Shown here piece after piece: positions 28,572-46,139 of a stretch of DNA of 64,000 bases. The DNA is from Thiobacillus sp. (GTDB lineage Bacteria; Pseudomonadota; Gammaproteobacteria; Burkholderiales; Thiobacillaceae). The notes under the pieces were generated by a model. The model saw only the letters and a list, made by a program, of their open reading frames with translations. It was not told the origin of the DNA and made no database searches. The position numbers and the translations under genes were made by a program. The stretch is from assembly GCA_018263115.1 (NCBI GenBank), contig JADFDC010000010.1, forward strand, positions 1 through 64,000, in the 5' to 3' direction. Numbering within the stretch: the stretch's first letter is position 1; each line of letters starts with the position of its first letter.

Positions 28572-30029
28572 ATGCAACCCCAGGCCAAACAACTTCCGCC
28601 CAGTCAGGCACACGCTACGCCCGCTCAGCCAAAAATGGCTGTCCAGGCATCGCGCGCGGTGCTGTCGGCCGAGCAGCTGCTGCAATTGCAGGCCGAGTTG
28701 CTGGGCCGCAAGCGATTCAACGAAGCGGCCACCGCCCTGGCCCAGCAACTGGCCAGCAGTCTGAAATGCGACCGCGCCAGCATCGGCTGGCAGGAAAAAA
28801 ACGGCATGAACATTGTGGCGGCTTCCTATGTCGCAGAAGTACACATCCGTCAGGAAACCGCCCGGCTGATCGCGGCCGCGATGGAAGAAGCCGCCGAACA
28901 GGGCATCCGGCTTGTCCATCCCGAACCCGACAACAGCAAGCCGCACATCCTGCTGGCGCATGACGAGCTGGCGCGCCGCCAGGGTTATTCGATATGCACC
29001 GTTCCGCTGGCATACGATGGACGCATCGTCGGCGCGCTGACCATGGAGCGCCGCGACCGGGAGTTCACCCCGGCGGAAGCTTCACATATCGAACGCGTGG
29101 GGGCGATGCTGGCTCCCTCGCTGACGCTGAAATATGAAAACAGCCTGTCGCTCTGGCGCCGTTTCTACACAGGCCTCAAAAGCGGATTCGATCACCTTCT
29201 TAAAACCGATACCCCAGCGCGCAAACCGGTCGCGATCGGTATCGCCAGCGCATTTGTGCTGCTGGCCGCCGTGTTGCTGGTTCCGGTCAGCTACCACGTC
29301 AGCGCACCCGCGCAACTGGAAGGCGCCATTCAGCGAGTGCTTACTGCACCCGCGGATGGTTATTTGCATCAGGTTCATGTACGCCCCGGCGACCGTGTGA
29401 CCGCGGGTCAGGTGCTGGCCGAACTGGCCGACCAGGACATGCAGGTGGAACTGCGCGGACTGGAAGCCGAACTGGCCCAGCATCAAAACGCGCTGATTTC
29501 CGCCCAGGCACACGGTGACCGCGCGGAATACAGCGTCAGCCAGGGCCGCGCCGAAGCCGCCCGCGCCCGGCTCGAACTGCTGCAGCAGCAGATCGAACGC
29601 AGCCAGTTGCGCGCGCCGTTTGACGGCGTGGTGATCAAGGGCGACCTGACCCAGTCGATCGGCACCCCGGTCGAACGCGGCGCGGAACTCATTACCCTGG
29701 CGCCTTCAACGGGCTATCGCGTGATGATCGAAGCCGAAGAATCCGAAGTCGCCGATCTCAAGACCGGCCAGACCGGCCGGCTGATCCTGGCCGCCCTGCC
29801 TTCCCAAGCCTTGCCTGTGCAGATTGAACGCATCACCCCGCTTGCCAGTACCGAAGCGGGGCGTCACTTCTTCGCGGTCTACGCCACACTGGAAGGCAGG
29901 CAGCCTGCGCTGCGTCCGGGCATGCAGGGTTTCGCCAAAATCGAAGTGGACAAGCGGCCCCTGCTGGTGAACTGGGCCAGCCGCCTGTTGAACTGGAGCC
30001 GTATCCAACTGTGGTCCTGGGGGGCATAA
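28572..30029 (+). CDS. GAF-domain membrane fusion protein (HlyD-like), first gene of the giant-protein locus
   Basis: A protein of 485 residues with an unusual layout. Residues ~45-190 form a GAF-type cytoplasmic sensor domain (LLGRKRFNEAATALAQQLAS; GYSICTVPLAYDGRIVGALT). A single membrane helix follows at ~218-242, then a periplasmic adaptor: lipoyl half-motifs (VLTAPADGYLHQVHVRPGD; LRAPFDGVVIKGDLTQSI), a coiled-coil hairpin (~285-345) and a beta-barrel part. It could connect a cytoplasmic signal to a periplasmic export conduit; that role is inference. Two bases separate its stop codon from the next start. No strong ribosome site is visible. Confidence 0.82.
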   Translation: MQPQAKQLPPSQAHATPAQPKMAVQASRAVLSAEQLLQLQAELLGRKRFNEAATALAQQLASSLKCDRASIGWQEKNGMNIVAASYVAEVHIRQETARLIAAAMEEAAEQGIRLVHPEPDNSKPHILLAHDELARRQGYSICTVPLAYDGRIVGALTMERRDREFTPAEASHIERVGAMLAPSLTLKYENSLSLWRRFYTGLKSGFDHLLKTDTPARKPVAIGIASAFVLLAAVLLVPVSYHVSAPAQLEGAIQRVLTAPADGYLHQVHVRPGDRVTAGQVLAELADQDMQVELRGLEAELAQHQNALISAQAHGDRAEYSVSQGRAEAARARLELLQQQIERSQLRAPFDGVVIKGDLTQSIGTPVERGAELITLAPSTGYRVMIEAEESEVADLKTGQTGRLILAALPSQALPVQIERITPLASTEAGRHFFAVYATLEGRQPALRPGMQGFAKIEVDKRPLLVNWASRLLNWSRIQLWSWGA

Positions 30030-30030
30030 G

Positions 30031-32181
30031 GTGTCCACCGATTCGCTGTTCAGTCCCAACTGGTTTCGTGTCGCCAACCTGCACCCGCAACTGGGCGGCC
30101 ACGTGCAGGTGCGCCGCCAGTCCAGCCGCGACGCGCTGTGGTATGTGTTTACCGATACCGCCACCGGCCGCCAGCATCGGCTGAATGACATCGCCTATCA
30201 GTTCGCCGGCCGCTGCAACGGCCGCCATTCCGCCAACGAAATCTGGGAAGCCCTGCTGCGGAAACTGGGCGACCACGCGCCCTCGCAGGAAGAAATCATT
30301 CATCTCATCGGACAGCTGACTGAAGGCGGCATGCTGCAGGTCGAAAAACTGTCGGATGTCGAAGCCCTGTTCGAGCGGCATGAAGAACGCGCCAGCAAGC
30401 AGCGGCGAAGCGCGCTGAATCCGCTGTCATTCCGCCTCAACCTGTTCAACCCTGATCGCCTGCTGCGCAGATTCGATGGCATTGGCCAGCAGTTGTTTCG
30501 CACCTGGGTGCTGGGCGTGTGGGCGCTGGCCGTTGGCCTGGCGCTGTTCAGCGGATTCGCGCACTGGGATGAACTGCGCGCCCATGCCGCCACCTACCTG
30601 CTTACACCGCGTTATCTGATCCTGATGTGGCTGTGCTTTCCCGTCATCAAGGCCGTGCACGAACTGGCACATGGCCTGGCGGTACGCCGCTGGGGCGGCG
30701 AAGTCACGCAAATGGGCATCGCCCTGCTGGTGCTGATCCCGGCGCCGTTTGTCGATGCCTCGGCGGCTTCCGCATTCCGGCCTGCATATCAGCGCGTCAT
30801 GGTCAGCGCCGCCGGCATCATGGTCGAGCTGCTGATCGCCGCCCTGGCGCTGTTCGTCTGGCTCAATGTCGAACCCGGCCTGCTGCGCGACATCGCCTTT
30901 GTCTTCGCCTTCATCGGCAGCGTGTCCACCGTGCTGTTCAACGGCAATCCGCTATTGCGCTTCGACGGTTATTACATGCTCAGCGATGCGCTCAATCTCC
31001 CCAATCTTGCCCCGCGCAGCAGCCGCTACTGGGCCTACCTTGCGCAGCGTTACCTGCTCAAGCTGCCCGGCGCGCAATCGCCCGAACCCGCAAGCGGCGA
31101 GCGCGTGTGGCTGCTGATCTACGCGCCGCTGTCCTGGCTGTACAAACTGTTCATCGGCATGATGATCACGTTCTGGATCGCGTCGAAATCGTTTTTCCTC
31201 GGCCTCGCCGCCGGTCTGTTCCTGCTTGTCACCACCCTCGCGCAGCCGCTACACAAAGTGCTGCGTTTCGCGTTTTTTTCGCCCGTGCTGGGCACGCAGC
31301 GCATGCGCGCCCGCATGATCACGACCGGGGTGGCGGCGCTTGTCCTGCTTGCCATTGGCGTCATGCCCATGCCCTCGACCACCGTGGCGGAAGGCGTGGT
31401 GTGGCTGCCCGAACGCGCGCAGCTTCGCGCGGAAACCGGCGGCTTCGTTGTCAGCGTGGCGGCGCGCGATGGCGACACCGTCAAGCCGGGCCAGTTGATC
31501 GCCGTGCTCGAAGACCCTGCCCTGGAAGCCAGCCGCCGCGAATTGCAGGGCAAGCTGGATGGCCTGCGCGCCGAGCACTATCAGACTTTTCTCAGTGACC
31601 CGTTCAAGGCCAAAAACGCCGACGAAGCCATGCTGCGGGTCAGCGCCGAACTGGCTCGCATCGAGGAGCGGCTGGCGCAGCTTGAAGTGCGGGCCCAGAT
31701 CGAAGGGCGGCTGGTCATGCCGCGCCAGCAGAACCTGCCGGGCGCGTTCATGAAGCAGGGTGCGCTGCTGGGCTATGTGTTCAGCCCCGATCAGGTTCGC
31801 GTGCGTGCCGTGGTCGACGAGCACGACATCGCCCTGGTGCGCGAGCGCACCCGGTCCGTTGACGTGCTGCTGGCCGATCGCGCATGGCAGCGGCTCGATG
31901 CCGGGTTGACCCGCGAAACACCCGCCGCAACACAAACCCTGCCCAGCCCGGCACTGGGCGACCGCGCGGGCGGCAGCCGGATCACCGACCCCGCCGACAA
32001 GGACGGCGTCAAAATCCTGGAGCCCGTGTTTCTGGTCGACCTGACCCTGCCGCCCCTCGCGACGAACCGGGTCGGTGGACGCGCCTGGGTGCATTTCGAT
32101 CATGGCGCCGCGCCGCTCGCCGTGCAGTGGACTCGCCGCGTACGGCAGCTTTTCCTCAAGCATTTCAGCGCGGCGGAGTAG
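30031..32181 (+). CDS. PqqD-like / M50 site-2 protease / HlyD-like fusion protein
   Basis: A 716-residue protein starting at a GTG (30031). Residues ~15-105 resemble a PqqD-type winged helix (RHLND-like region QHRLNDIAYQFAGRCNGRHS). Residues ~145-430 are a multi-pass M50 metalloprotease: HELAH at 210-214 supplies HExxH, and NPLLRFDGYYML supplies the third ligand, Asp312. After ~450 come a membrane helix and a HlyD-like part with lipoyl motifs (VSVAARDGDTVKPGQLIAVL) and a coiled coil. All zinc ligands are present, so it should be an active intramembrane protease. Substrates are likely the giant proteins encoded downstream (inference). Confidence 0.82.
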   Translation: MSTDSLFSPNWFRVANLHPQLGGHVQVRRQSSRDALWYVFTDTATGRQHRLNDIAYQFAGRCNGRHSANEIWEALLRKLGDHAPSQEEIIHLIGQLTEGGMLQVEKLSDVEALFERHEERASKQRRSALNPLSFRLNLFNPDRLLRRFDGIGQQLFRTWVLGVWALAVGLALFSGFAHWDELRAHAATYLLTPRYLILMWLCFPVIKAVHELAHGLAVRRWGGEVTQMGIALLVLIPAPFVDASAASAFRPAYQRVMVSAAGIMVELLIAALALFVWLNVEPGLLRDIAFVFAFIGSVSTVLFNGNPLLRFDGYYMLSDALNLPNLAPRSSRYWAYLAQRYLLKLPGAQSPEPASGERVWLLIYAPLSWLYKLFIGMMITFWIASKSFFLGLAAGLFLLVTTLAQPLHKVLRFAFFSPVLGTQRMRARMITTGVAALVLLAIGVMPMPSTTVAEGVVWLPERAQLRAETGGFVVSVAARDGDTVKPGQLIAVLEDPALEASRRELQGKLDGLRAEHYQTFLSDPFKAKNADEAMLRVSAELARIEERLAQLEVRAQIEGRLVMPRQQNLPGAFMKQGALLGYVFSPDQVRVRAVVDEHDIALVRERTRSVDVLLADRAWQRLDAGLTRETPAATQTLPSPALGDRAGGSRITDPADKDGVKILEPVFLVDLTLPPLATNRVGGRAWVHFDHGAAPLAVQWTRRVRQLFLKHFSAAE

Positions 32182-32184
32182 CGG

Positions 32185-34170
32185 ATGACCATGCAGACAC
32201 ACGCGCTTCCGCAACCCGGACTCATTTGGGGCCTGTATCCGGAGAATCGCCAGCCGGAGAACAACAGCGCCTGGCTCAGGCGTTTGAATGCCCTCGGCCA
32301 GCTTGCTGGCCGCTCGGGATTGCGGCGTTACGAACAGATCGCCCGGCATTCGCTGGAACTGGAACAGCATGTGAGTACGCTTTCCAGCACCGCATTCAGC
32401 GAAGCTGTTCGCGGCCTGAAACAGCAGTTGAAAAAGGAAGGCTTCAACGCGGAAACCATCGCTCAGGCTTTCGCGCTGACCGGCGATGCCTGCCGCCGTC
32501 ATCTGGGCATGTCGCCCTTCGTCACCCAGCGCATGGCTGCCGCCATCATGCTCGACAACCAGCTTGCCGAAATGGCGACCGGCGAAGGCAAAACGCTGGT
32601 GGCCGCGCTGACTGCCGCCGCCGGCGCGCTGGCGGGCATGCCCGTACACGTCATCACCGCCAACGAATATCTGGTCACACGCGACGCCGCCAAACTGCGG
32701 CCAGTATATGCCGCGCTGGGGTTGACAGTGGGCGCCATCCAGCAAAGCCTGGAAAGCAACTGGCGCCGCGCGGAATACGCCCGCGACATCACCTACTGCA
32801 CGGCCAAGGAACTGGTATTCGATTACCTGCGCGATATGCCCGTGCGCAGCCAGCACCGCACCGACCTGGCCTGGCATGCCGCGCAGTTCCCGGAGACCGA
32901 AACAAGCCAGAAGCCCCTGCTGCGCGGCCTGTGCATGGCCGTCATCGACGAAGCCGACAGCATCCTCATCGACGAAGCCCGCGTGCCGCTGATCATTTCC
33001 GAGCTGCACGAAAACGCGGGCAAGCAGGAAGCGGCCGCGGAAATCCTGCACCTTGCCGCCACCCTGCGGCCGCAAATTGATTTCAGACTCGACCACCACG
33101 CGCACACCGCGGTGCTGACAGACACCGGCAGGGCAATGCTCGATGGAAAAGCCGACTCGCTGCATCCGGCCTGGCACAACCGTCGTCATCGCGACGAGAA
33201 CCTGTGCCTGGCGCTGGCAGCGCTGCACCTGTTCCAGCGCGACCTTCATTATCTGGTGCGCGATGACGGCGTACACATCATCGACGAAACCACCGGCCGA
33301 CTCGCGCCCGGGCGCACCTGGTCGCGCGGCCTGCACCAGTTCATCGAAATGAAGGAAGGCTGCAAGGTGAGTGGCGAGGCCGTCACCCGCGCGCAAATCA
33401 CCTATCAGCGCTTCTTCCCGAGATATCTGCGGCTGTGCGGCATGAGCGGCACGCTGGCTGAATCGCGCGGCGAACTGTCGCGCGTGTATGGTCTCAACGT
33501 CGTGCGCGTTCCGCTGCGCAAACCCAGCCGCAGGACAGAACTTGGCCAACGCGTATTCCTGCAACGCACCCAGCAATGGAATGCCGTGGCGCAGCGTGCG
33601 GCAGCGTTGGCCGGTCAAGGCCGGCCGGTACTGATCGGTACCGATTCGGTCGCCGATTCCGACAGCCTGTCCGCGCACCTCACCCAGCAAGGCATTGCCC
33701 ACACCGTACTCAATGCGCGCAATGATCAGCAGGAGGCTGCCATTGTCGCGCTTGCCGGTTATCGCGGCCGCGTCACCGTGGCCACCAACATGGCGGGGCG
33801 CGGCACTGACATTCCGCTGGGCCCGGGTGTGGAAAATCGCGGCGGCCTGCACGTCATCTCCTGCCAGATGAACAGCTCGCGCCGCATCGACCGCCAGTTG
33901 AAAGGCCGTTGCGCGCGCCAGGGCGACCCCGGAAGCGTGGAAGCCATGCTGTGCCTGGAAGCGCCGTTGATGCAGCGCAGCCTGCCTGCCTGGCTCAAGC
34001 GCTTCGCCGAAAAATACGCGGACAAAAACACCGGCCAACTGCCCGGCTGGCTTGGCAAGTCAATGACCGCCCACACCCAGCGCATGGAAGAATCCCGCCA
34101 GCAGGCGCAGCGCGCGCAACTCCTCCACAGCGACCGGCAGCTCGACCGCCAGGCGGTGTTCAGGGATTAA
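32185..34170 (+). CDS. accessory SecA-like preprotein translocase ATPase
   Basis: A 661-residue SecA homologue, much shorter than housekeeping SecA (~900). Walker A is MATGEGKT at 130-137 and Walker B is VIDEADSILIDEA at ~253. A preprotein-binding-like region follows (AVLTDTGRAMLD), then YLRLCGMSGTLAE, TNMAGRGTDIPLGPG (~534) and the arginine-finger segment QLKGRCARQGDPGS (~570). After residue ~640 it stops: most of the helical scaffold/wing region and the zinc-binding tail (CxCxSG) are missing. It starts 3 bp after the M50 gene and ends 2 bp before the first giant gene, so co-expression is expected. It probably drives export of the giants. Confidence 0.88.
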   Translation: MTMQTHALPQPGLIWGLYPENRQPENNSAWLRRLNALGQLAGRSGLRRYEQIARHSLELEQHVSTLSSTAFSEAVRGLKQQLKKEGFNAETIAQAFALTGDACRRHLGMSPFVTQRMAAAIMLDNQLAEMATGEGKTLVAALTAAAGALAGMPVHVITANEYLVTRDAAKLRPVYAALGLTVGAIQQSLESNWRRAEYARDITYCTAKELVFDYLRDMPVRSQHRTDLAWHAAQFPETETSQKPLLRGLCMAVIDEADSILIDEARVPLIISELHENAGKQEAAAEILHLAATLRPQIDFRLDHHAHTAVLTDTGRAMLDGKADSLHPAWHNRRHRDENLCLALAALHLFQRDLHYLVRDDGVHIIDETTGRLAPGRTWSRGLHQFIEMKEGCKVSGEAVTRAQITYQRFFPRYLRLCGMSGTLAESRGELSRVYGLNVVRVPLRKPSRRTELGQRVFLQRTQQWNAVAQRAAALAGQGRPVLIGTDSVADSDSLSAHLTQQGIAHTVLNARNDQQEAAIVALAGYRGRVTVATNMAGRGTDIPLGPGVENRGGLHVISCQMNSSRRIDRQLKGRCARQGDPGSVEAMLCLEAPLMQRSLPAWLKRFAEKYADKNTGQLPGWLGKSMTAHTQRMEESRQQAQRAQLLHSDRQLDRQAVFRD

Positions 34171-34172
34171 GC

Positions 34173-37100
34173 ATGCTGAACATTCCTTTCCGCCGCCGCC
34201 CGCTGATCGAAGAACTGGAGCCCCGCCTCCTGTATTCGGCCGACCTCGCGCCGCTGGCGCTGGACGGCGTGCAGCCCGCGCCAGAACAACGCGTGGTCAA
34301 TGAAACGGGTGAGTTTTCCGACACAGTCACCGCAGTTCGACACGAGCTGGTCATCGTCGATACCGGCGTCGGAAACTACCAGACCCTGATCGATGACATC
34401 CTGAAGCAGACGGGCAACCGCCGCATCGAGGTCGTTGTGCTGGACACCAACCGTGATGGCGTCGATCAGATCACTGAAATCCTTGGCCAGCACAACAACC
34501 TCGATGCCCTGCATCTTATTTCCCACGGCGATTCGGGCATGTTGCAACTCGGTAACGGCGTGCTCGACAGCAGTGCCCTGCAAACCCGCGCGGAAGAACT
34601 CGCCGCCTGGAAATCCGCCTTTGGCGAGCAGGCTGACATTCTGCTTTATGGCTGCGAGGTCGCGGCCGACAATGCGGGACAGACGCTGATTCATGACCTC
34701 GCCGCTTTGACCGGCGCCGACGTCGCGGCCAGCACGGACAACACCGGCAGTCAGGTCGGTGGCAACTGGGAACTCGAACATCGTGCCGGCAGCATTGAAA
34801 CCGGCATGCTGCTCGGCGAGGTGCAGATGGTGTGGCAGGGTCAGCTCAATATCAATCCTGAAACTGATCAAAGTGTCAGCAACGCCGTCAATCCCAATGC
34901 CCAGGATACTGCGCCTTCCGCCAGACAGGTGGCCATGCACAGCGATGGCAGCTTTGTCGTGGTGTGGACCAGCAATAGCCAGGACGGCAGCGGCTATGGC
35001 GTCTATGCCCGCCATTTCGATGCGAGCGGCAACCCGCTCACCGGCGAAACCAAGGTCAATACCACTACCAGCGACGATCAGAGCGCACCTGTCATCGCCA
35101 TGGATGCAAGCGGCAACTTTGTTGTGGTCTGGCAAAGTGCCAAACAGGAAACCGGCGGAGGTAATACGTGGGGCATTTTCGCCCAGCGATTCGACTCTTC
35201 ATGCAACAAGCTGGGAAGCGAATTCCAGGTCAATAGCACGGTAAGCAATGATCAAATGTCCCCATCGGTTGCCATGGATGCAGCAGGCAATTTTGTCGTG
35301 GTGTGGGAAAGCAATAACCAGGATGGCGACGGCCTGGGGATTTACGCCCAGCGCTTCGATTCCCTTGGCAACACGATTTTGACTGCCGGTGAAAATGAGT
35401 TTCTGGTCAACAGTACGACCGGCCTCAACCAGTCGCAGCCCGCGGTCGCCATGAATGCGTCAGGCGCTTTTGTGATTGCCTGGACCAGCCAGGACATCGA
35501 CAGCGGCACCAGCGACGGTGTAGTCGCCCGCCTGTTTGATTCTTCCGGCAACACGGTAAAGGATGAATTCAAGTTCCACCCCTTGCCCGCCAATAACCAG
35601 CACTCGCCGGATGTGGCCATGAACGACAACGGCGAGTTTGTCATTGCGCTGGTCGATGAATTCTGGGGCAATGCCAATGTCAGCGCCTGGCTGTTCGACG
35701 CCGCCGGTAACCGTCAAGGAATTGGCGCCCAGCTCAACCAGTATTCAAGCGGTACCCAGCAGAACCCGTCGGTTGCGATCAACAACGCTGGCGATTTCAT
35801 CGTCGTCTGGGAAAGCCAGAACCAGGATGGCGATGGCTATGGCATCGTGGCCCGGCATTTCAATTCCAGTTATTCGGCTTATGAAGACGAGCAGATCATC
35901 AATGCCGTGACGGTGGCGAATCAGTATGCACCCAGCCTTGCCTGGAAAGACAATCAAGCGATCATCGTCTGGAGCGGTTTTGGCACGGAAGACAGCCAGG
36001 GCGTGTATTTCCGGCAGGCGGAAATCAACACCCCGCCGGCGATCACCTCCGATGGAGGGGGATCAAGCGCGAATCTTTCCATTGCGGAAAACACGATCTT
36101 CGTCACAACAGTAACCGCATCCGATATGGATGTTCCGGCGCAGGTCCTTTCCTACAGCCTGACAGGCGGTACTGATCTCACGAAATTCACCATCGACTCC
36201 GTCACGGGTGCACTAACTTTCATTTCTCCACCCGACTACGAGTCGCCAGCCGACAGCAATGCCAATAACAGTTATCAGGTCATCGTTCAGGTGGATGATG
36301 GCCACGGCGGCACCGATACGCAAACCATCAACATTACCGTCGGCAATGCCGCACCGACGGCGCAGGATGACAGCTATACCGTCCTTCAGGATGCCTCGCT
36401 TACGGTTACGGCGGGAACAGGCCTGCTCGGCAACGATGCTGATCCTGCTGGCGGCTCGCTCACTGTTCTATCGGCCACCCAGCCGGCACATGGCACGGTG
36501 TCGCTTGTACCTGCCGTCATAACCAGCTTTATCAACCTCACCAACAACGCCGCAATTGATACGCGGGCCGACTGGTCGCCGGATGGCAGCAAGATCGCCT
36601 TCGACACCGACCGCAATGGCAACAATGAAATTTATGTCATGAATGCCAACGGCACCGGCCTGACACGCCTGACCAACAACAGTTACGACGACAGCCAGGC
36701 GGCCTGGTCCCCCAACGGCAGCAAGATCGCGTATATGTCGAACAGCAGCGGCACCTACGACGTCTGGGTGATGGATGCCAACGGAAGCAACAAGACCAAG
36801 CTCACCACCTCCGGCAGCGGCAAGGTCAGCGGGCAGCCCGCCTGGTCACCCGACGGCAGCCAAATCGCATTCACCTCCAATCGCACCGGCAGCACGGGCT
36901 ACGACATTTACGTCATGGACGCGGACGGCAGCAATGTCACGAAATTGACGACCGCTTCTGGAGACGACTCGGAACCGGTGTGGTCGCCGGATGGATCGAA
37001 GATCGCTTTCTACTCCAATCGCGACGGCAATACCGAAATCTACGTCATGAACGCGGACGGCTCCGGTCAGACACGGCTGACCAGCAGCAGCGGAACGGAT

Positions 37101-40100
37101 AAATCACCAGTGTGGTCGCCGGATGGATCGAAGATCGCTTTCGCCTCCAACCGCACCGGCACCTATCAGATCTATATGGTGGATGCCGATGGCTCGAACC
37201 CGGTCCAGGTCACCAGCGCCGCCACCGATGTCACTTTCCCGGATTGGTCGCTTGACGGAAAAAAACTGCTGTTCACCCACGGCAACGAGATCAAGGCTGG
37301 CGGGGTGGTGTTTGGTGGCTCATTCATCTACACCCCTGACTCCGGCTATTCCGGCACCGACAGCTTCACCTATACGGTAAGCGACCCAGGCGGCTTGACC
37401 AGTATGGCCACGGTGACGATCAATATCACCCCGACCAATATCGCACCCACGACGACCCCGGTCACGCTCTCGGCAATCGCGGAGGACAGCGGCGCACGCC
37501 TCATCACCCAGGCGGAACTGCTGACCAACGCCAGCGATGCCAACGGTGACACGTTGATCGCCAGCGCACTGGCCATCACCAGCGGTACCGGTGTGCTGGT
37601 GGACAACGGTAACGGCACCTGGACTTACACGCCCGCAGCCAATGACAACAGCGCGGTCAGCTTCAGCTACACCATCACCGACGGGCAGGGCGGTTCAGCA
37701 GCAGGCAGCGCGACGCTGGACATTACGCCCGTGAACGACGCGCCGGTTGCCGTCAACGACAGCGCCTCCGGTAATGAAGATACCGCCATCACCGGCAATG
37801 TGCTGGGTAACGACACGGATGTCGAAGGCGATGCGTTGACTGCGGCCGTGGTCAGCGGACCTGCCCATGGCAGCCTGACACTCAACCCTGATGGCAGCTT
37901 CACCTACACGCCCACCGCCAACTGGAACGGCACCGACACCTTCACCTATCGGGCCAATGACGGCTCGGACAGTTCCAATACCGCCACGGTGACGATCACG
38001 GTTGCCTCCGTCAACGATGCCCCCGCTGGCACCGACAAGACCGTGACGACCAACGAAGATACCCCTTACATCTTCAGCACGAGTGATTTTGGTTTTACCG
38101 ACCCCAACGATACGCCCGCCAACAGCCTGAATGCGGTCAGAATCGCCACCCTGCCCTCTGCAGGAACCCTGTGGATTGACAACGATCCCGTGTCAGCGGG
38201 TCAGGTGCTCAGTGCATCGGATATTGCCAGCGGCAAGCTCAAATACACTCCGCCGGCCAATGCAAATGGCAGCAATTTTGCCAGTTTCAGCTTTCAGGTC
38301 CGCGACAACGGCGGAACGGTCAACGGCGGCGTCAGGCTCGATCCCACGCCCAACACACTCACCATCAACGTCACGCCGGGGAATGACGCGCCGACCGCAG
38401 CCAATTACAACTTCGATATTCCAATCAATCTGCTTTACTCCGGCACGCTGCCCGCTGCCACGGATGTGGATGGCGACACGGTCACTTACACGCTGGCCAC
38501 ACCAGCAAGTCATGGTATTGCCTCGGTCAACACAGATGGCTCATTCACCTATCTGCCGGTTCTGAGCTATTTTGGTTCCGACAGCTTTACCTACACGGTG
38601 TCGGACGGCAACGGCGGCAGCAACAGCTATAGCGTGACCATCAATGTCGGCTCGATCAACACGGCGCCCGTCGCATCGGACGACACCGCGTCCAACCTTG
38701 AAGACAATGCCATCACCGGCAATGTGCTGGGCAACGATACCGATGCCGACGGCAACCCATTGACGGCCACACTGGCAGGGGGGCCATCCCACGGTGTCCT
38801 TATATTCAATAGCAACGGCAGCTTTACCTATACCCCCAACGCCAACTGGAACGGGACAGACAGCTTTACCTATCTCGCCAATGATGGCGCGTCTGACTCC
38901 AATATGGCGACCGTCACTCTCACCATCACCGCCGTCAATGACGCCCCCGTGGCTGCTGACGACAGCGCCTCGGGCGATGAGGACTCCACCATCACCGGCA
39001 ATGTGCTGGGTAACGACACGGATGTCGAAGGCGATGCGTTGACTGCGGCCGTGGTCAGCGGACCCGCCCATGGCAGCCTGGCGCTCAATCCGGATGGCAG
39101 CTTCACCTACACGCCCACCGCCAACTGGAACGGCACCGACACTTTCACCTATCGGGCCAATGACGGCTCGGACAATTCAAATACAGCCACGGTGACAATT
39201 GCGGTCAATCCGCTCAGCGACACGCCTGAAACCAGCCTCGTGACGCTCGCGCCGATTGCGGAAGACAGTGGTTCGCGCCTGATCACGCAAGCGGAATTGC
39301 TTGCCAATGCCAGTGATGCCGACGGCGATACGCTGACCGCGACCAGCCTCGCCATCACCAGCGGCAATGGCACATTGATCAACAACGGCAACGGTACCTG
39401 GACATACACCCCCGCACTTCATGACGGAAGCGATGTGAGCTTCAGTTATACCGTAACGGATGGCAGCCTGGCTGCACCCGGCACCGCCTTCCTCGACATC
39501 ACGCCAGTCAACGAGGCGCCTGTTGCAGCCACATACAGCTTCGAAGCCAAAGAGGACACGCTCTACATCGGGGCGTTGCCCATTGCAGCCGATACGGATG
39601 GCGATGCCATCACCTACGCGTTGGCTGTGCCGGCAAGCCACGGCATCGTCAGCATCGCGGCGGATGGCAGCTTTACGTACACCCCTGCCGGCAATTTCAA
39701 TGGCGCCGACAGCTTCAGTTTTTCCGTCAGTGACGGCAATGGTGGCAGCAATACCTATGCAGTCGACGTGTCGGTAACGCCGGTCAACGATGCGCCAGTC
39801 AGCGCTAATGGCGTCGTGAGCACAAACGAGGATACGACCTACACCTTCCAGATCACCGATTTCGCTTTCAGCGACCCCAGCGACAGCCCGTCTGACAACC
39901 TGTTGTCGGTCACCATTGTCTCCCTGCCTTCGGCGGGTACACTGCTATATGAAGGCTCGCCCGTAACACCGGGGCAGACTATCGACGCTTTTGAAATTGG
40001 CCTTGGCAAGTTGCAGTTCGCCGCGGTTGCCAATGAGAGTGGTGCGACTTATGCCAGCTTCAGCTTCCAGATCCATGATAGCGGCGGCATTGCCGATGGC

Positions 40101-41774
40101 GGAATCGATACCGACCCGATCTCCCGCACCCTGACCATCAACGTCACAGCAGTCAACGACACACCCACGACGAGTGGCATCGCCGACATCTCGGTGAGCG
40201 AGGATGCGCCCGACACGGTGATCGATCTGTTCGCGGCTTTTGCCGATATCGAGGATGCCGATGCATCGCTCAACTACACGGTCGTCGCCAACACCAACCC
40301 CTCCCTGTTCAGTGCGACTGTCATTGATGGCATCGCTGGCACGCTCACCCTTGGCCACGCGGCCAATGCCCACGGATCAGCGGACATCACGATTCGCGCC
40401 ACTGACATGGGCGGATTGTGGGTGGAAAGCACATTCACCATGACGGTCGATCCGGTCAACGATGCGCCGACCTCCGGCAATACAAATTTCAGCACACAGG
40501 AAGACACGGTTCACAGCGGGAATCTGCCACCAGCCTCTGATGTTGACGGCGATGTCGTGTCCTACACGCTCACCGTGGCAGCCAGCCATGGCACGGTATC
40601 CATCGGCGCGGATGGAAGCTTCAGTTACACGCCAGCTGTTAATTTCAGCGGCAGTGACAGTTTTGCTTTCACCGTCTCCGACGGCAATGGCGGAAGCAAT
40701 GCCTACACTGCATTCATCAACGTGCAATCCGTAAACGATGCCCCCACGCTTGCAATGGGTTCGCTGGCTGTCGCCCAGGGCGGCACCCTCATTCTGGATG
40801 GCAGCAAACTCTCGGCAAACGACGCGGACAACACGGTTGGCGAGTTGACCTATGTTGTGACGGCCCTCCCCGCAGAAGGCACGCTTGCGCTGAATGGCGG
40901 GGCGCTGGCAGTCAACGACACCTTTACCCAGGCCGACATCGACGCAGGACTTGTCACCTACACGCACACCTCCGCCACCGCATCGCCCGACAGCCTCGGC
41001 ATCAAGGTAATCGATCCTGCCAGCGCGGAAACACCCGGCGTGCTGGCCATCGCCATCTCGGCGCCGCCTCCCGATCTTGCTGAAGCGGGCGCCCCGATGC
41101 CCGAGCCGGAGCCAGCACCTGAACCCACGGCAAAATCTCCCGCCAGCGAGACTGAAACCGTTACTGAAGAGGCATCCGCCACAATCGGCGATTTGCCCGC
41201 TGGCTCGCTGACCGAGGATGAGGACGACAAGGAAAAAACCAGCGGCTTCTTCGAGGAAGACGGGGAAAGCAGTTTTACCGAAGCCTACCGGCGGGCCAGC
41301 ACGCTCAATCCGCTTCAAATCGCTTTCAACAGCTATCTGCTGCAAAACGAAGCGCCCATCACGACACCGCTGCTGGCTACGCTGAACCGCGCGCTGGATG
41401 CCATCGCCAGTGACATGAATGCGCTGGAGTCTCTGAAAACCAGCCTGGGCAGCGACAGTTTCCAGCAGCAGCTCAACCAGTTGCAGGAGGACATCCGCCA
41501 GCAGCTGAGTCTGGACAAGAACACCGTGGCCTCGACCCTGGCGGTGTCCACCGGCCTGTCGGTGGGCTATGTGCTGTGGCTGGTGCGCGGCGGCGTGCTG
41601 CTGTCCAGTCTTTTGTCGTCCCTGCCGGCATGGCGGCTGATCGATCCGCTGCCCATCCTCGGCCACCTCAACCGCCAGAAACATGGGGATGACGAAGACG
41701 ATTCCCTTGAGGGCATGCTGAAAAAATCCGCTAACAGGGACAAGACACCCGCCAAGGATACCCACGCCTCATGA
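34173..41774 (+). CDS. giant LEPR/DUF4347 repeat protein 1 (2533 residues)
   Basis: The ATG at 34173 (AGGGA upstream) begins MLNIPFRRRPLIEELEPRLL, then SADLAP, with no hydrophobic signal peptide. Residues ~50-215 are DUF4347, with His118 (LISHGDSG) and Cys161 (LLYGCEVA). Residues ~225-620 hold repeats of the form AMDASGNFVVVW. A cadherin-like domain and an Ig-like domain with an inserted six-bladed TolB-type propeller (WSPDGSKIAF repeats, 36.5-37.3 kb) follow, then about a dozen cadherin/VCBS-like repeats (NDAP...GNVLGNDTD...SFTYTP) to 40.7 kb, a CSPG-like repeat, a Pro/Glu linker and a C-terminal domain. A hydrophobic segment at ~2456-2490 ends SLPAWRLIDPLPIL before a charged tail. Likely a surface or envelope adhesin. 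The stop overlaps the kinase start (ATGA). Confidence 0.85.
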   Translation: MLNIPFRRRPLIEELEPRLLYSADLAPLALDGVQPAPEQRVVNETGEFSDTVTAVRHELVIVDTGVGNYQTLIDDILKQTGNRRIEVVVLDTNRDGVDQITEILGQHNNLDALHLISHGDSGMLQLGNGVLDSSALQTRAEELAAWKSAFGEQADILLYGCEVAADNAGQTLIHDLAALTGADVAASTDNTGSQVGGNWELEHRAGSIETGMLLGEVQMVWQGQLNINPETDQSVSNAVNPNAQDTAPSARQVAMHSDGSFVVVWTSNSQDGSGYGVYARHFDASGNPLTGETKVNTTTSDDQSAPVIAMDASGNFVVVWQSAKQETGGGNTWGIFAQRFDSSCNKLGSEFQVNSTVSNDQMSPSVAMDAAGNFVVVWESNNQDGDGLGIYAQRFDSLGNTILTAGENEFLVNSTTGLNQSQPAVAMNASGAFVIAWTSQDIDSGTSDGVVARLFDSSGNTVKDEFKFHPLPANNQHSPDVAMNDNGEFVIALVDEFWGNANVSAWLFDAAGNRQGIGAQLNQYSSGTQQNPSVAINNAGDFIVVWESQNQDGDGYGIVARHFNSSYSAYEDEQIINAVTVANQYAPSLAWKDNQAIIVWSGFGTEDSQGVYFRQAEINTPPAITSDGGGSSANLSIAENTIFVTTVTASDMDVPAQVLSYSLTGGTDLTKFTIDSVTGALTFISPPDYESPADSNANNSYQVIVQVDDGHGGTDTQTINITVGNAAPTAQDDSYTVLQDASLTVTAGTGLLGNDADPAGGSLTVLSATQPAHGTVSLVPAVITSFINLTNNAAIDTRADWSPDGSKIAFDTDRNGNNEIYVMNANGTGLTRLTNNSYDDSQAAWSPNGSKIAYMSNSSGTYDVWVMDANGSNKTKLTTSGSGKVSGQPAWSPDGSQIAFTSNRTGSTGYDIYVMDADGSNVTKLTTASGDDSEPVWSPDGSKIAFYSNRDGNTEIYVMNADGSGQTRLTSSSGTDKSPVWSPDGSKIAFASNRTGTYQIYMVDADGSNPVQVTSAATDVTFPDWSLDGKKLLFTHGNEIKAGGVVFGGSFIYTPDSGYSGTDSFTYTVSDPGGLTSMATVTINITPTNIAPTTTPVTLSAIAEDSGARLITQAELLTNASDANGDTLIASALAITSGTGVLVDNGNGTWTYTPAANDNSAVSFSYTITDGQGGSAAGSATLDITPVNDAPVAVNDSASGNEDTAITGNVLGNDTDVEGDALTAAVVSGPAHGSLTLNPDGSFTYTPTANWNGTDTFTYRANDGSDSSNTATVTITVASVNDAPAGTDKTVTTNEDTPYIFSTSDFGFTDPNDTPANSLNAVRIATLPSAGTLWIDNDPVSAGQVLSASDIASGKLKYTPPANANGSNFASFSFQVRDNGGTVNGGVRLDPTPNTLTINVTPGNDAPTAANYNFDIPINLLYSGTLPAATDVDGDTVTYTLATPASHGIASVNTDGSFTYLPVLSYFGSDSFTYTVSDGNGGSNSYSVTINVGSINTAPVASDDTASNLEDNAITGNVLGNDTDADGNPLTATLAGGPSHGVLIFNSNGSFTYTPNANWNGTDSFTYLANDGASDSNMATVTLTITAVNDAPVAADDSASGDEDSTITGNVLGNDTDVEGDALTAAVVSGPAHGSLALNPDGSFTYTPTANWNGTDTFTYRANDGSDNSNTATVTIAVNPLSDTPETSLVTLAPIAEDSGSRLITQAELLANASDADGDTLTATSLAITSGNGTLINNGNGTWTYTPALHDGSDVSFSYTVTDGSLAAPGTAFLDITPVNEAPVAATYSFEAKEDTLYIGALPIAADTDGDAITYALAVPASHGIVSIAADGSFTYTPAGNFNGADSFSFSVSDGNGGSNTYAVDVSVTPVNDAPVSANGVVSTNEDTTYTFQITDFAFSDPSDSPSDNLLSVTIVSLPSAGTLLYEGSPVTPGQTIDAFEIGLGKLQFAAVANESGATYASFSFQIHDSGGIADGGIDTDPISRTLTINVTAVNDTPTTSGIADISVSEDAPDTVIDLFAAFADIEDADASLNYTVVANTNPSLFSATVIDGIAGTLTLGHAANAHGSADITIRATDMGGLWVESTFTMTVDPVNDAPTSGNTNFSTQEDTVHSGNLPPASDVDGDVVSYTLTVAASHGTVSIGADGSFSYTPAVNFSGSDSFAFTVSDGNGGSNAYTAFINVQSVNDAPTLAMGSLAVAQGGTLILDGSKLSANDADNTVGELTYVVTALPAEGTLALNGGALAVNDTFTQADIDAGLVTYTHTSATASPDSLGIKVIDPASAETPGVLAIAISAPPPDLAEAGAPMPEPEPAPEPTAKSPASETETVTEEASATIGDLPAGSLTEDEDDKEKTSGFFEEDGESSFTEAYRRASTLNPLQIAFNSYLLQNEAPITTPLLATLNRALDAIASDMNALESLKTSLGSDSFQQQLNQLQEDIRQQLSLDKNTVASTLAVSTGLSVGYVLWLVRGGVLLSSLLSSLPAWRLIDPLPILGHLNRQKHGDDEDDSLEGMLKKSANRDKTPAKDTHAS
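36519..37299 (+). other. TolB-like six-bladed propeller inserted in an Ig-like repeat of giant protein 1
   Basis: Six WSPDGSKIAF-type blades lie between SLVPAVITS and FGGSFIYTPDSGYSG. The flanking pieces together make one Bap/VCBS-type domain (AQDDSYTV...GTVSL / GSFIYTP...DSFTYTVSD), so the propeller sits inside that domain's loop. Confidence 0.75.
37781..39183 (+). repeat. two near-identical ~200-bp segments in giant gene 1, offset 1203 bp
   Basis: Segment 37784-37980 recurs at 38987-39183 with only scattered differences; for example 37801 and 39004 both begin TGCTGGGTAACGACACGG. The offset is 401 codons, so recombination between them would keep the frame while removing or adding four repeats. 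Confidence 0.8.
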
Positions 41775-44302
41775 AACGACTATTAAGAAAACTGAGCGCT
41801 CGCTTCTATCTCAGCCTGGGGCTGGTGTCCCTGGTCATGAGCCTGCTGCTGCTGGCCTTTTTCTTCGGCATTGTGCCGGATGCGAACAAGGCCGCCCGCG
41901 AAGGCCGTGCCGCGCTGGCCGAATCCATCGCCGCGTACAGCACGGCCCTGATCAGCCAGGACCAGACCGAGGAATTGCAGGCAACCCTGGGCTTCATCGT
42001 CGAGCGCAACCCCGACCTGTTGTCCGCCGGCATCCGCACGGTGGACGGTCAGGTCGTCGCCGCCCTGGGCGAACACGACAAACACTGGATCAACGCGGGC
42101 AACACCGCCTCCACCGAAGCGCACATCCATGTGCCGATCTATGCTGGAGACAATGCATGGGGCCAGGTCGAACTGGCGTTCGAGCCAATGAACCCTCAAG
42201 GCATACTGGGCTACGCTTATGACAAACGCGTGCAGCTCTCACTGTTCCTGGCTCTGTCCGGATTCGTGGTGTTCTATTTCTATCTGGGCCGCATGCTCAA
42301 GCACCTCGATCCTTCGCGCGCCGTGCCCGAGCGCGTTCGCTCCGCGCTCGACACCCTGACCGAGGGTCTGCTGGTCATGGATACCGAAGGCCACATCGTA
42401 TTGGCCAACCAGGCGTTCGCCGACCTGATCGGACGCGAGCAAATCAGCCTCACCGGCGAAACCGTCGAAGGACTGGCGTGGGAAAACGACTCGGGCGCGA
42501 AACCGGCTTCAACGGATTTCCCCTGGCAGCAGGCATTGCAAAATGGAGCGCCCATCCGCAACAGCATGCTGTGGCTGACCGGCGCTGACGGCAAGCGCCG
42601 CACCTTCATGACCAACTGCTCGCCGATTCTGGTCGGCAAGGGTGAATACGGCGGCGTGATGGTCTCGCTCGACGATGTGACGCTGCTGGAAGAAAAGGAA
42701 ATCGAGCTGCGCAAATCGCAGCAGGAGGCGGAAAACGCCAACCAGGCCAAGAGCGATTTTCTCGCCAACATGAGCCACGAAATCCGCTCGCCGATGAACG
42801 CGATTCTCGGCTTTACCGAACTGCTGCGGCGTGGCCAGGCCAAGAGCGAAACCGAGTACCGCAAACATCTGGACATCGTGCATGCCAGCGGCACGCATTT
42901 GCTGGGGCTGATCAACGACATTCTTGACCTGTCCAAGGTCGAGGCGGGGCGTCTGGATGTCGAACAGATTGCCTGCTCGCCCTGGCGGATCGCGCACGAA
43001 GTGGTGCAGTCGCAAGGCGTGAAGGCGGCCGAGAAAGGCATCAGCATCGCGCTTGAATGCCCTGGCTCGGCGCCGGAAAACATCGATACCGACCCTGCGC
43101 GCCTGCGGCAGATCCTGACCAACCTGATCGGCAACGCCATCAAGTTCACCGAAAAGGGCGGCGTTAAACTTGCATTGCGTTTTGTGCCCAGCCGCCCCGT
43201 GGCTCAGTTGCAATTTGAAGTAAGCGATACCGGCATCGGCATCGCCGCCGACAAGCTGGATAGCGTGTTCGAGCCTTTCACCCAGGCCGAAAACTCCATC
43301 ACCCGCCGCTTTGGCGGCACGGGCCTTGGCCTCACCATCAGCCGCCGCTTCGCCCGCGCAATGGGCGGCGACATCACCCTGAAAAGCGCGCCGGGCGCAG
43401 GCAGCACTTTCACGGTAACCCTGCCCGCCGGACCAATCGAACAGATCAGGCTGCTGACGCCGGAAGAAATCACCCGCCAGCAATCGGATGCCGTTATCCC
43501 CACAGGCGCAAGCTGGAAACTGCCCAAGGCCCATGTGCTGATCGTCGACGACGGCGAGGAAAACCGCGAGCTGGTGCGTCTGGTGCTGGAAGAGGCTGGC
43601 GCGCTCACCGAACAGGCCGAAAACGGCCGCGTTGCGGTCGAAAAAGCCCTGGCCCGGCCTTACGACCTCATCCTCATGGATTTGCAAATGCCGGAAATGG
43701 ATGGCGAGACCGCCACCCGACTGCTGCGCAGCCGTGGACTGAAAACCCCCATCGTCGCGCTGACCGCCCATGCCATGAAGGGCTTTGAGGACAGCATCCT
43801 TGCCGCCGGCTGCACGGCTTACCTCACCAAGCCCATCGATCTGGACAAGCTGATGGCCACGGTCGCCCGATTAACCGGTGGCGAGCAGGTTTCGTCCAGC
43901 ATGAAGAAGCCCCCCCAGATGCCGATAACCACATATAAGGCAGGCAGCGTGCCGAGGGCTCAAATCGCCTCGCGTCTGGCTGGCAACCCCCGGTTGCGGC
44001 CGGCGGTCGTGAAATTTGTCGACCGGCTGCCCGAGCAGCTCGACGCCATGGAAAGCGCCTGGAAAGCGCACGATTTCAGGGCCCTGTCTGAACTGGCGCA
44101 CTGGCTGAAAGGGGCAGGCGGCACGGTCGGGTTCGATGTCTTTACCGAACCCGCAAAAGAACTGGAACAACTGGCGAAAGCCGGTACGGAGGATGGCATG
44201 AATGAAGTGATCGGCGAACTGCGCGACCTGGCCTCGCGCCTTGTCCGTCCTGTGGAAGCAGAGAACAACAACACGCAGGCGCCCGTTTCGGCGCTGAAAT
44301 AG
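41771..44302 (+). CDS. hybrid sensor histidine kinase (periplasmic sensor-PAS-HisKA-HATPase-REC-Hpt)
   Basis: An 843-residue membrane kinase. It has a TM helix at ~14-34, a periplasmic domain to ~150 (GEHDKHWINAG; IHVPIYAGDNAWGQVEL), a second TM at ~157-177, PAS at ~190-315, the H box MSHEIRSPMNAILGF (His ~336), the N box NLIGNAIKFTE, the G boxes DTGIGI and GGTGLGLTIS, a receiver at ~588-705 (Asp in LILMDLQMP) and Hpt at ~745-830 (LAHWLKGAGGT). This is a complete phosphorelay. The start overlaps the giant gene's stop (ATGA). Its periplasmic domain is homologous to that of the cyclase at 61.7 kb. The REC-GGDEF-EAL protein next door is the likely output. Confidence 0.92.
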   Translation: MKRLLRKLSARFYLSLGLVSLVMSLLLLAFFFGIVPDANKAAREGRAALAESIAAYSTALISQDQTEELQATLGFIVERNPDLLSAGIRTVDGQVVAALGEHDKHWINAGNTASTEAHIHVPIYAGDNAWGQVELAFEPMNPQGILGYAYDKRVQLSLFLALSGFVVFYFYLGRMLKHLDPSRAVPERVRSALDTLTEGLLVMDTEGHIVLANQAFADLIGREQISLTGETVEGLAWENDSGAKPASTDFPWQQALQNGAPIRNSMLWLTGADGKRRTFMTNCSPILVGKGEYGGVMVSLDDVTLLEEKEIELRKSQQEAENANQAKSDFLANMSHEIRSPMNAILGFTELLRRGQAKSETEYRKHLDIVHASGTHLLGLINDILDLSKVEAGRLDVEQIACSPWRIAHEVVQSQGVKAAEKGISIALECPGSAPENIDTDPARLRQILTNLIGNAIKFTEKGGVKLALRFVPSRPVAQLQFEVSDTGIGIAADKLDSVFEPFTQAENSITRRFGGTGLGLTISRRFARAMGGDITLKSAPGAGSTFTVTLPAGPIEQIRLLTPEEITRQQSDAVIPTGASWKLPKAHVLIVDDGEENRELVRLVLEEAGALTEQAENGRVAVEKALARPYDLILMDLQMPEMDGETATRLLRSRGLKTPIVALTAHAMKGFEDSILAAGCTAYLTKPIDLDKLMATVARLTGGEQVSSSMKKPPQMPITTYKAGSVPRAQIASRLAGNPRLRPAVVKFVDRLPEQLDAMESAWKAHDFRALSELAHWLKGAGGTVGFDVFTEPAKELEQLAKAGTEDGMNEVIGELRDLASRLVRPVEAENNNTQAPVSALK

Positions 44303-44312
44303 GGACTAAATC

Positions 44313-46139
44313 ATGGCAGCGAACCCTTTATCCGCCCTTTCCCTGAACGACACCACGGACATTGACGCGCAGTCTCCCGAACGGCTGGTCTCGATGCAGG
44401 CCTTGCGAGACGCCCGGGTCATGATCGTCGACGACGAACCCATCATGATGGATGTGGTGCAGGCCTTTCTGGAAGACGCGGGCTACACCAATTTTCTGAC
44501 CACGGATGACTCCGATGGCGCGCTGGACATGATGCTCAAGGAGCGGCCCGACGTACTCCTGCTGGATCTGATCATGCCCGGCAAATCCGGTTTTGAACTG
44601 CTGGCTGAAATCCGCAGCGAACCCACGCTGCGCTACATGCCGGTGATCGTACTTACCGCGGCAAGTGATTCCGACACCAAGCTGCAGGCGCTGGAGCTGG
44701 GCGCCACCGATTTTCTGGCCAAGCCGGTCGATCCGAGCGAGCTGAACCTGCGCATCCGCAACGCCCTCGCGTTCAAGGCCTACCAGGACCAGCTGGCCTA
44801 CAACGACGCACTGACCGGCCTGCCCAATCGCCAGCTGTTTCTTGAGCGCCTGTCGTGGACCTTGCGTCTGGCCCGCCGCCACAACAAGCAATGCGCTTTG
44901 CTGCAAATCGGTCTGGACCGCTTCAAGCAGATCAACGATACGCTGGGCCATGAAACAGGCGATGAAGTGCTGAAAGCGGTTTCAAAGCGGCTTGCCGCGA
45001 CACTGCGCGAATCCGACACGCTCAGCATGCTGGACGACCGCGAGGACGCCATCAGCCTGTCGCGCCTCGCCGGCGACGAGTTCATGGTGCTGGTATCGGA
45101 AATCAAGCATCCGGAAGACGCCTCGATCATCGCGCGCCGCCTGCTGGAGACGATGAAGTCCCCGCTGATGCTGAACGGGCATGAGCTGTTCATCACCATC
45201 AGCGTGGGCATCGTGCTGTTTCCGCAGGATGGCCAGCAGGGCACGGACCTGCTGACCAATGTCGACCTGGCCATGGGCCAGGCCAAGCTGCATGGCCGCA
45301 ATACCTATGCGTTTTATTCGCCGGAAACCAACGCCCGTTCCTTCGAACGGCTGACGCTGGAAACGGCTTTGCGCAAGGCCATGGAAAGAAACGAGCTGGA
45401 ACTGTATTACCAGCCCAAGGTGGAAACCGCCACCGGCCGCATCATCGGCGCCGAGGCCCTGCTGCGCTGGACTCACAAGGAGCTGGGCGCGATTTCTCCC
45501 GCGCGCTTCATCCCGCTTGCGGAAGAAACTGGTCTTATCCTGCCACTGGGAGAATTGGTCTTGCGCCAGGCCTGCCAGGATGCCGTCAAGTGGCAGCAAG
45601 GCGGCTGCAACCTGCCGGTGTCGGTCAACGTCTCCAGCCTGCAATTCCGCCGTGGCGACATGCCCGCCATCATCCAGTCCGTTTTGCAGTCCAGCGGACT
45701 TCAGGCAGGCAATCTCATCATCGAGCTGACGGAAAGCCTGTTGATGGAGAACGCGAAAGCCAACATCGACATGCTGCGCGCCATCAAGCTCCTGGGCGTG
45801 CGGCTGTCCATGGACGACTTCGGCACGGGTTACTCGTCCCTTTCCTATCTCAAGCGTTTTCCGCTGGACGAACTCAAGATCGACCAGGTGTTTGTACGCG
45901 ACCTGCCGGATGATCCGGGCAATGCCGCCATTGTCGGCTCGGTCATTTCCATGGCGCGCGGGCTGGGCCTGACGGTGACGGCCGAAGGCGTGGAAACCCC
46001 CGCGCAAATGAACTTCCTGAAAATGCACGGCTGCGACCTGTTCCAGGGCTACCTGTTCAGCCGTCCGCTGCCCCTGAACGAATTTACCGCCCTGCTGGCG
46101 CAAAAAACCAACTGTTTTTCCAAATCAAACATGAACTGA
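44313..46139 (+). CDS. REC-GGDEF-EAL c-di-GMP signalling protein
   Basis: A soluble protein of 608 residues. The receiver domain (~35-150) has VMIVDDEP, phospho-Asp in LLLDLIMPG and Lys in LAKPVD. The GGDEF domain (~165-330) carries RLAGDEFMVL, a variant first glycine, and no RxxD inhibition site in the usual place. The EAL domain (~345-600) is intact: EALLRW, SVNVSSLQF, IELTESLL, DDFGTGYSSL and AEGVE. It probably mainly degrades c-di-GMP when phosphorylated by the kinase upstream (inference). AGGGACT precedes the ATG, 10 bp after the kinase stop. Confidence 0.92.
   Translation: MAANPLSALSLNDTTDIDAQSPERLVSMQALRDARVMIVDDEPIMMDVVQAFLEDAGYTNFLTTDDSDGALDMMLKERPDVLLLDLIMPGKSGFELLAEIRSEPTLRYMPVIVLTAASDSDTKLQALELGATDFLAKPVDPSELNLRIRNALAFKAYQDQLAYNDALTGLPNRQLFLERLSWTLRLARRHNKQCALLQIGLDRFKQINDTLGHETGDEVLKAVSKRLAATLRESDTLSMLDDREDAISLSRLAGDEFMVLVSEIKHPEDASIIARRLLETMKSPLMLNGHELFITISVGIVLFPQDGQQGTDLLTNVDLAMGQAKLHGRNTYAFYSPETNARSFERLTLETALRKAMERNELELYYQPKVETATGRIIGAEALLRWTHKELGAISPARFIPLAEETGLILPLGELVLRQACQDAVKWQQGGCNLPVSVNVSSLQFRRGDMPAIIQSVLQSSGLQAGNLIIELTESLLMENAKANIDMLRAIKLLGVRLSMDDFGTGYSSLSYLKRFPLDELKIDQVFVRDLPDDPGNAAIVGSVISMARGLGLTVTAEGVETPAQMNFLKMHGCDLFQGYLFSRPLPLNEFTALLAQKTNCFSKSNMN

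Follow-up and report, generated by a model that had tools for sequence, protein, structure and literature searches.

A short SecA protein beside LEPR-XLL giant proteins in Thiobacillus and a proposed export function of its locus

Beside its full-length SecA, a Thiobacillus sp. genome encodes a second, shortened SecA whose gene lies directly in front of the gene for a giant repeat protein. The locus raises the question of what a SecA without its C-terminal part does beside such a protein, and how the giant protein leaves the cell. It was analysed in a stretch of 64,000 nucleotides (assembly GCA_018263115.1, contig JADFDC010000010.1, positions 1 to 64,000), referred to as the window. Secondary SecA_DEAD proteins beside genes for GAF-HlyD, M50-HlyD and HlyD proteins have been described in five phyla (Kamneva, Poudel & Ward 2015, PMC4452313). 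That study noted the absence of the wing-scaffold domain and the separation of the secondary SecA_DEAD proteins from housekeeping SecA in the tree. Its authors suggested a system akin to type I secretion, in which SecA is the ATPase and the M50 protein a possible pore, and left function and substrate open. Judged by its gene content, a SecA_DEAD protein without SecA_SW and GAF-HlyD, M50-HlyD and HlyD neighbours, the window carries this module, and the kind of SecA gene is itself already published.

The short SecA and its relatives

The short SecA gene (32185..34170, + strand, ATG start) encodes a protein of 661 residues and was characterized by Pfam, alignment with PDB entries, motifs and phylogeny. 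Pfam matched SecA_DEAD (E = 4.6e-87), the preprotein cross-linking domain (1.7e-22) and the SecA P-loop domain (4.2e-47), and gave no match to SecA_SW (wing/scaffold) in the 661-residue protein. The motor thus comprises both nucleotide-binding domains and the preprotein cross-linking domain. Its motifs are intact: Walker A TGEGKT, VIDEAD, GMSGT, GRGTDI and QLKGRCARQGDPG. In the PDB entries, residues 14-606 of Bacillus subtilis SecA were covered by the alignment. The alignment with the genome's own full-length SecA extended to about residue 656 of the latter, where SecA_SW spans 624-837. The short protein stops some 30 residues after the start of the wing-scaffold domain and lacks the wing, the two-helix finger and the zinc tail. 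The housekeeping SecA, encoded elsewhere in the genome, is full length with SecA_SW and the C terminus CPCGSG; against the housekeeping model TIGR00963, the short protein scored 527.8 bits (cut-off 800). Because SecA_SW was found in 0 of 21 relatives, nearly all of which end at the same place, the truncation is the architecture of a family rather than a broken gene.

A sequence-only reading had described a truncated second SecA of 661 residues with intact ATPase motifs and no wing or zinc region, lying between a protease gene and a giant gene. Pfam, motifs and alignment bear out this description, and the position is correct as well, the "protease" being a PqqD/M50/HlyD fusion (30031-32181). 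Structure prediction from only three sequences each gave pLDDT values of 38.7 for the short SecA and 36.4 for the M50-HlyD protein. Most phage matches to P0001 came from short records that originate from Gram-positive bacteria, at 37-39% identity.

A tree of 67 sequences was calculated, including short-SecA relatives from Rhizobiales and Rhodobacterales and excluding the sequences published by Kamneva 2015, such as Methylobacterium extorquens META1p2400. In it, 42 short SecAs grouped together as a single clade with SH-aLRT 100. Housekeeping SecA and the SecA2 proteins of firmicutes and actinobacteria lay outside this clade, among them those of Staphylococcus, Tsukamurella and Gordonia. The window protein paired with that of locus L056 (contig labelled Thiobacillus sp.), with 74% identity. 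The identity to the genome's own housekeeping SecA was 35%, which together with the separate clade rules out a recent duplication, one of the outcomes that the sequence-only reading had named as fatal to its claim. Membership in SecA2 is ruled out by the separate clade and by scores far under the model cut-offs: 427 bits against 930 for TIGR03714, 427 against 725 for TIGR04221, 484 against 1085 for TIGR04397 and 375 against 1100 for NF012136. In eight other genomes of the genus, several of them incomplete assemblies, no comparable match to the short SecA was found, which fits either acquisition or repeated loss of the locus. Another kind of SecA paralogue occurs on plasmids (Pseudomonas amygdali pMPPla107 and Candidatus Chlorohelix; L196 6028-11544 and L198 11084-14613), near or directly after a gene for an A24 prepilin peptidase.

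The gene run and its giant proteins

Nine genes on the + strand, from 28572 to 63253, follow each other with gaps of at most 148 nucleotides or small overlaps. Their order is GAF-HlyD, PqqD-M50-HlyD, short SecA, LEPR giant 1, hybrid histidine kinase, GGDEF-EAL regulator, HlyD, giant 2 and PAS-GGDEF. From this spacing we infer a single transcript. A scan for promoter and terminator consensus sequences gave nothing above chance. The G+C content of 30001-34000, which holds the M50-HlyD and SecA genes, was about 64.5%, compared with 54-60% upstream.

The GAF-HlyD protein (28572..30029, + strand, 485 residues; Pfam GAF 6.7e-10, HlyD_3 1.2e-21) has an N-terminal GAF domain, a single hydrophobic segment at 216-247 and then the HlyD barrel-sandwich domain, and it occupies the same slot in the other loci of the type termed class I below. 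The fusion that follows (30031..32181, + strand, 716 residues) has a PqqD-like N terminus, several hydrophobic segments with HExxH and a HlyD-like C terminus. In the window protein the Pfam matches are weak, PqqD just below and M50 slightly below the gathering score; among 20 relatives, M50 was matched in all and PqqD in 16 (E<0.01). H210, E211, H214, N306, P307 and D312 were invariant in 20/20 M50-HlyD proteins. This is the pattern of M50 intramembrane proteases, a membrane protein with HExxH and a distal N-x-P-x-x-x-x-D motif. Since this site is invariant in a protein with several hydrophobic segments, proteolysis by M50-HlyD is likely to be under selection. By analogy with peptide-maturation systems, the PqqD-like domain is a candidate leader binder.

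Giant 1 (34173..41774, + strand, 2,533 residues; Pfam, NF012209) is a candidate cargo. Its ATG at 34173 lies 2 nucleotides past the SecA stop, and in the homologous loci L003 and L004 the giants likewise start 2 nucleotides after SecA. A leader is followed by DUF4347, beta-propeller repeats and cadherin/Ig-like repeats. Giant 2 (47208..61691, + strand, 4,827 residues), the second candidate cargo, has DUF4347 (1e-54), cadherin repeats and a beta-helix region. Both N termini exceed the cut-off of 17 bits of the NCBIfam LEPR-XLL domain NF012209, giant 1 with 27.9 bits at the leader IEELEPRLLYSAD (34206..34244, + strand) and giant 2 with 26 bits; the leader of giant 2 is IEELEPRLLFSAD (47241..47279, + strand). 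Both leaders belong to class I. No signal-peptide-like hydrophobic core was present in any LEPR leader examined. At the C terminus of giant 1 (41412..41771, + strand), SLLSSLPAWRLIDPLPIL precedes an acidic stretch; the motif, SLLxSLPAWRxxDxLPxL, and the acidic stretch recur at the end of giant 2 (47208-61691). This shared motif may be an anchor or a second signal.

The hybrid histidine kinase (41771..44302, + strand; Pfam PAS, HisKA, HATPase, receiver and Hpt) overlaps the end of giant 1 by 4 nucleotides and is likely to be on the same transcript. It is followed by a response regulator with GGDEF and EAL domains (44313..46139, + strand; Pfam). The third HlyD-type periplasmic adaptor (46151..47059, + strand, 302 residues; HlyD_D23 6.9e-19) is located past giant 1, the kinase and the GGDEF-EAL gene, and its counterpart comes after SecA in other class I loci. 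The first 4 nucleotides of the PAS-GGDEF gene (61688..63253, + strand) are also the last 4 of giant 2. The two-component and c-di-GMP genes suggest, as we infer, control of surface attachment.

Co-occurrence, leader types and decayed SecA copies

The short SecA and the LEPR giants were found together well beyond chance, in agreement with the link between the short SecA and giant repeat proteins that the sequence-only reading had drawn. Among 117 genomes of the same family, a short SecA was present in 10/10 LEPR genomes and LEPR in 10 of 11 short-SecA genomes (p=1e-13). Across 398 genomes of the phylum, 27 had both, 3 SecA only, 14 LEPR only and 354 neither (p=2e-28), i.e. LEPR was present in 27/30 short-SecA genomes compared with 14/368 others; the short-SecA call was made at 690 bits, a cut picked after the gap in scores had been viewed. 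When this sample was collapsed to families, the corresponding counts were 11, 3, 6 and 67 (p=1e-7). The samples comprise the window's own phylum and alphaproteobacterial plasmids, with many incomplete assemblies, and the related genomes in these counts are not independent. Two of the three short-SecA genomes without an LEPR match are clearly incomplete. Among the 14 LEPR-only genomes, a closer search found fragmentary or lower-scoring short SecAs beside M50 in G406, G185 and G217, and G126 holds a degenerate copy. A rule that SecA always accompanies LEPR is ruled out by eight LEPR genomes with only a different type of M50-HlyD.

In 11 loci of the phylum sample the gene for the giant shares its strand with SecA and ends 3.9-5.1 kb upstream of it, a space that fits DUF3467, GAF-HlyD and M50-HlyD. 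In four loci the giant comes second, with SecA 0-0.9 kb upstream of it, as in the window. The alphaproteobacterial plasmids have the same gene order as the loci of the phylum sample. Class I M50-HlyD was scored in 29 of the 30 short-SecA genomes, and in the other one (G285) a fragment lies beside SecA. TolC-family genes are adjacent in three class I loci (L068, L179 and L183) and unlinked in the window genome. Short SecA, class I M50-HlyD, GAF-HlyD and HlyD form a conserved group, joined in some genomes by TolC, and this group adjoins giants that begin with a matching LEPR leader and have no usual signal peptide. In many class I loci (L058-L061, L063, L068-L070, L072, L073, L079, L179 and L188) the gene for a small DUF3467 protein lies before GAF-HlyD; it is absent from the loci of the window, L056, L057 and L064-L066. 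A role of DUF3467 as a SecB-like chaperone was unsupported (hhalign probability 0.4%).

The longest open frame of an LEPR giant has 19,427 residues, with the leader at G177:C115:112865-112924. The median size of the giants was 7,312 residues with SecA and 3,658 without (p=5e-4), a comparison biased by contig ends, relatedness and a hand-typed list, which gives a hint of larger giants in the presence of SecA.

Two types of machine and leader were distinguished. Class I M50-HlyD proteins mostly scored 600-1,020 bits and almost always come with a short SecA; class II proteins scored about 180-360 bits and come without it. Class I leaders follow the pattern [ED]-x-(L/M/I)-E-(P/E/D/Q)-R-x-L-L-(S/N)-(A/G)-(D/E), with minor variants, and class II leaders are like MLALEPRILLDAA. 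Where the genome has a class I machine, 49/52 leaders carry an acidic residue at position -2 relative to LEPR; elsewhere 0/11 do (p=6e-10; p=2e-8 with one count per genome). This rule was chosen after viewing the same, related sequences, and the leader lists were collated by hand. All three exceptions come from genomes in which a class II machine is encoded as well. The class II-type leaders of G419 and G122 adjoin that machine, and in G237 it is encoded elsewhere. The exceptions thus favour a rule of matching between leader and machine.

The short SecA itself is not equally preserved. Recognisable versions of all five motifs were found in 46/52 sequences examined. Because so many keep all five, ATP use appears to be under selection in most lineages, and most short SecAs, including that of the window, are likely to use ATP. 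The catalytic motifs are lost in G126, G118 and L064-L066. Degenerate copies without working ATPase motifs (L180 8742-10691, L241 3949-5811 and L064-L066) stay in the same operon slot. In G447 and G302 the class I leader and the class I machine are kept and the SecA gene is absent from the locus. Because of these motif-dead copies and missing genes, the short SecA cannot be the sole energy source everywhere, and it is not indispensable in every lineage.

A proposed exporter, its alternatives and known systems

From sequence comparison we favour, with moderate confidence, the reading that the locus encodes a type I-secretion-like exporter without an ABC transporter for LEPR giants, in which the short SecA is the motor or a receptor. 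Recognition of the leader would take place in the cytoplasm, with the PqqD-like domain of M50-HlyD, the short SecA or both as the most likely readers. Using ATP, the short SecA would unfold the chain and feed it to the M50-HlyD membrane protein, and the conserved HExxH site would remove the leader. The chain would then cross the periplasm and the outer membrane by way of the three HlyD proteins and a TolC protein. Because SecA is dead or missing in some loci, it may serve as a receptor or booster no less than as a motor. A wider claim is possible, and we advance it tentatively: a distinct pathway of diderm bacteria, in which PqqD-M50-HlyD would read and cut the leader, a SecA-derived motor would work without SecY-contacting parts, HlyD and TolC would complete the route and at least two matched leader-machine types would exist, one of them without SecA.

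In SecA, the two-helix finger and the wing engage SecY, and the zinc tail engages SecB. The loss of these parts argues against canonical SecYEG/SecB work by the short SecA. It also weighs against an accessory role, in which the short SecA, the housekeeping SecA and SecYEG would together bring the giants to the periplasm, with M50, HlyD and TolC used only for processing and passage of the outer membrane. Such a role would agree with the conservation of the motor core and preprotein-binding domain as in SecA and with a locus that lacks SecY2, like SecA2-only systems; the housekeeping SecA could then stand in wherever the short one is dead or missing. However, the giants lack the hydrophobic core of a signal peptide, and class I M50-HlyD accompanies the short SecA in 29/30 genomes, with the fragment in G285. 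We regard the accessory role as unlikely.

The decayed copies give some weight to a view of the short SecA as mainly a leader receptor or adaptor with a dispensable ATPase, the energy coming from the proton motive force or another part. Degenerate SecAs are retained in the operon slot in G126, G118 and L064-L066, and the gene is gone from two loci that keep the giant, the leader and the other machine genes. With all five motifs kept in 46 of the 52 sequences, however, this view seems improbable as a general one. Least probable is that the giants use an ordinary type I system from another part of the genome, while the SecA/M50 module serves another cargo and co-occurrence comes from shared ecology or joint transfer. 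The window genome (G000) does have TolC proteins and an unlinked LssB-type ABC transporter (G000:C3:52618-54705, with a TolC-family gene on the same contig; 999 bits, cut-off 693). However, the giant is a direct neighbour in many loci, and the leader type follows the machine type even inside one genome.

If the favoured link between giants, leaders and the SecA/M50-HlyD machine holds, the module of 2015 would have a substrate, and its targeting sequence would be short and open to testing. The link would also explain how an annotated, uncharacterised class of giant surface proteins gets outside. Bacterial export of single polypeptides many thousand residues long is poorly understood. The matched leader and machine types and the dead or missing SecAs are natural experiments on the role of a SecA without SecY-contacting parts.

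Compared with the module of Kamneva 2015, the present analysis adds the LEPR-XLL giants, two leader classes, DUF3467, PqqD and SecA decay, and the run in the window also includes the histidine kinase and c-di-GMP genes. A word search of PMC4452313 found no occurrence of cadherin, adhesin, PqqD or DUF4347, and a link of LEPR-XLL or the leader classes to SecA/M50-HlyD machines was not found in the open-access literature searched. What is new is the proposed cargo, the LEPR giants, and the leader code that the comparisons suggest for the secondary SecA module.

The SecA2 and SecA2-SecY2 systems of Gram-positive bacteria likewise have a second SecA near large adhesin-like proteins. The parallel drawn by the sequence-only reading stands only in the sense of "works like": models, tree and the lack of SecY2 and Asp genes speak against membership of the protein in SecA2, and even the functional likeness is weakened because some related loci have a motif-less or missing short SecA. 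The locus differs from SecA2 systems in having no SecY2, Asp or glycosyltransferase genes, in its HlyD/M50/TolC partners, in its LEPR-leader cargo and in its separate clade. Likeness to PqqD/RRE-guided peptide maturation lies in the PqqD-like domain of the fusion and in its M50-type protease, as in the daptide HExxH protein NF041824, which the window protein matches at 6e-44. In contrast to NF041824, the window protein reaches 150.6 bits (cut-off 300), is fused to HlyD and has a putative cargo of thousands of residues. With type I secretion (HlyB-HlyD-TolC; LapBCE/LapA) the system shares the combination of HlyD-type adaptors with a TolC-type outer-membrane protein, TolC lying within some loci, and giants without an ordinary signal peptide. 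However, no ABC transporter was found among the module genes of the window and the compared class I loci. Its place is taken by a SecA-type ATPase and an M50 membrane protein, and the proposed cargo carries a conserved N-terminal leader.
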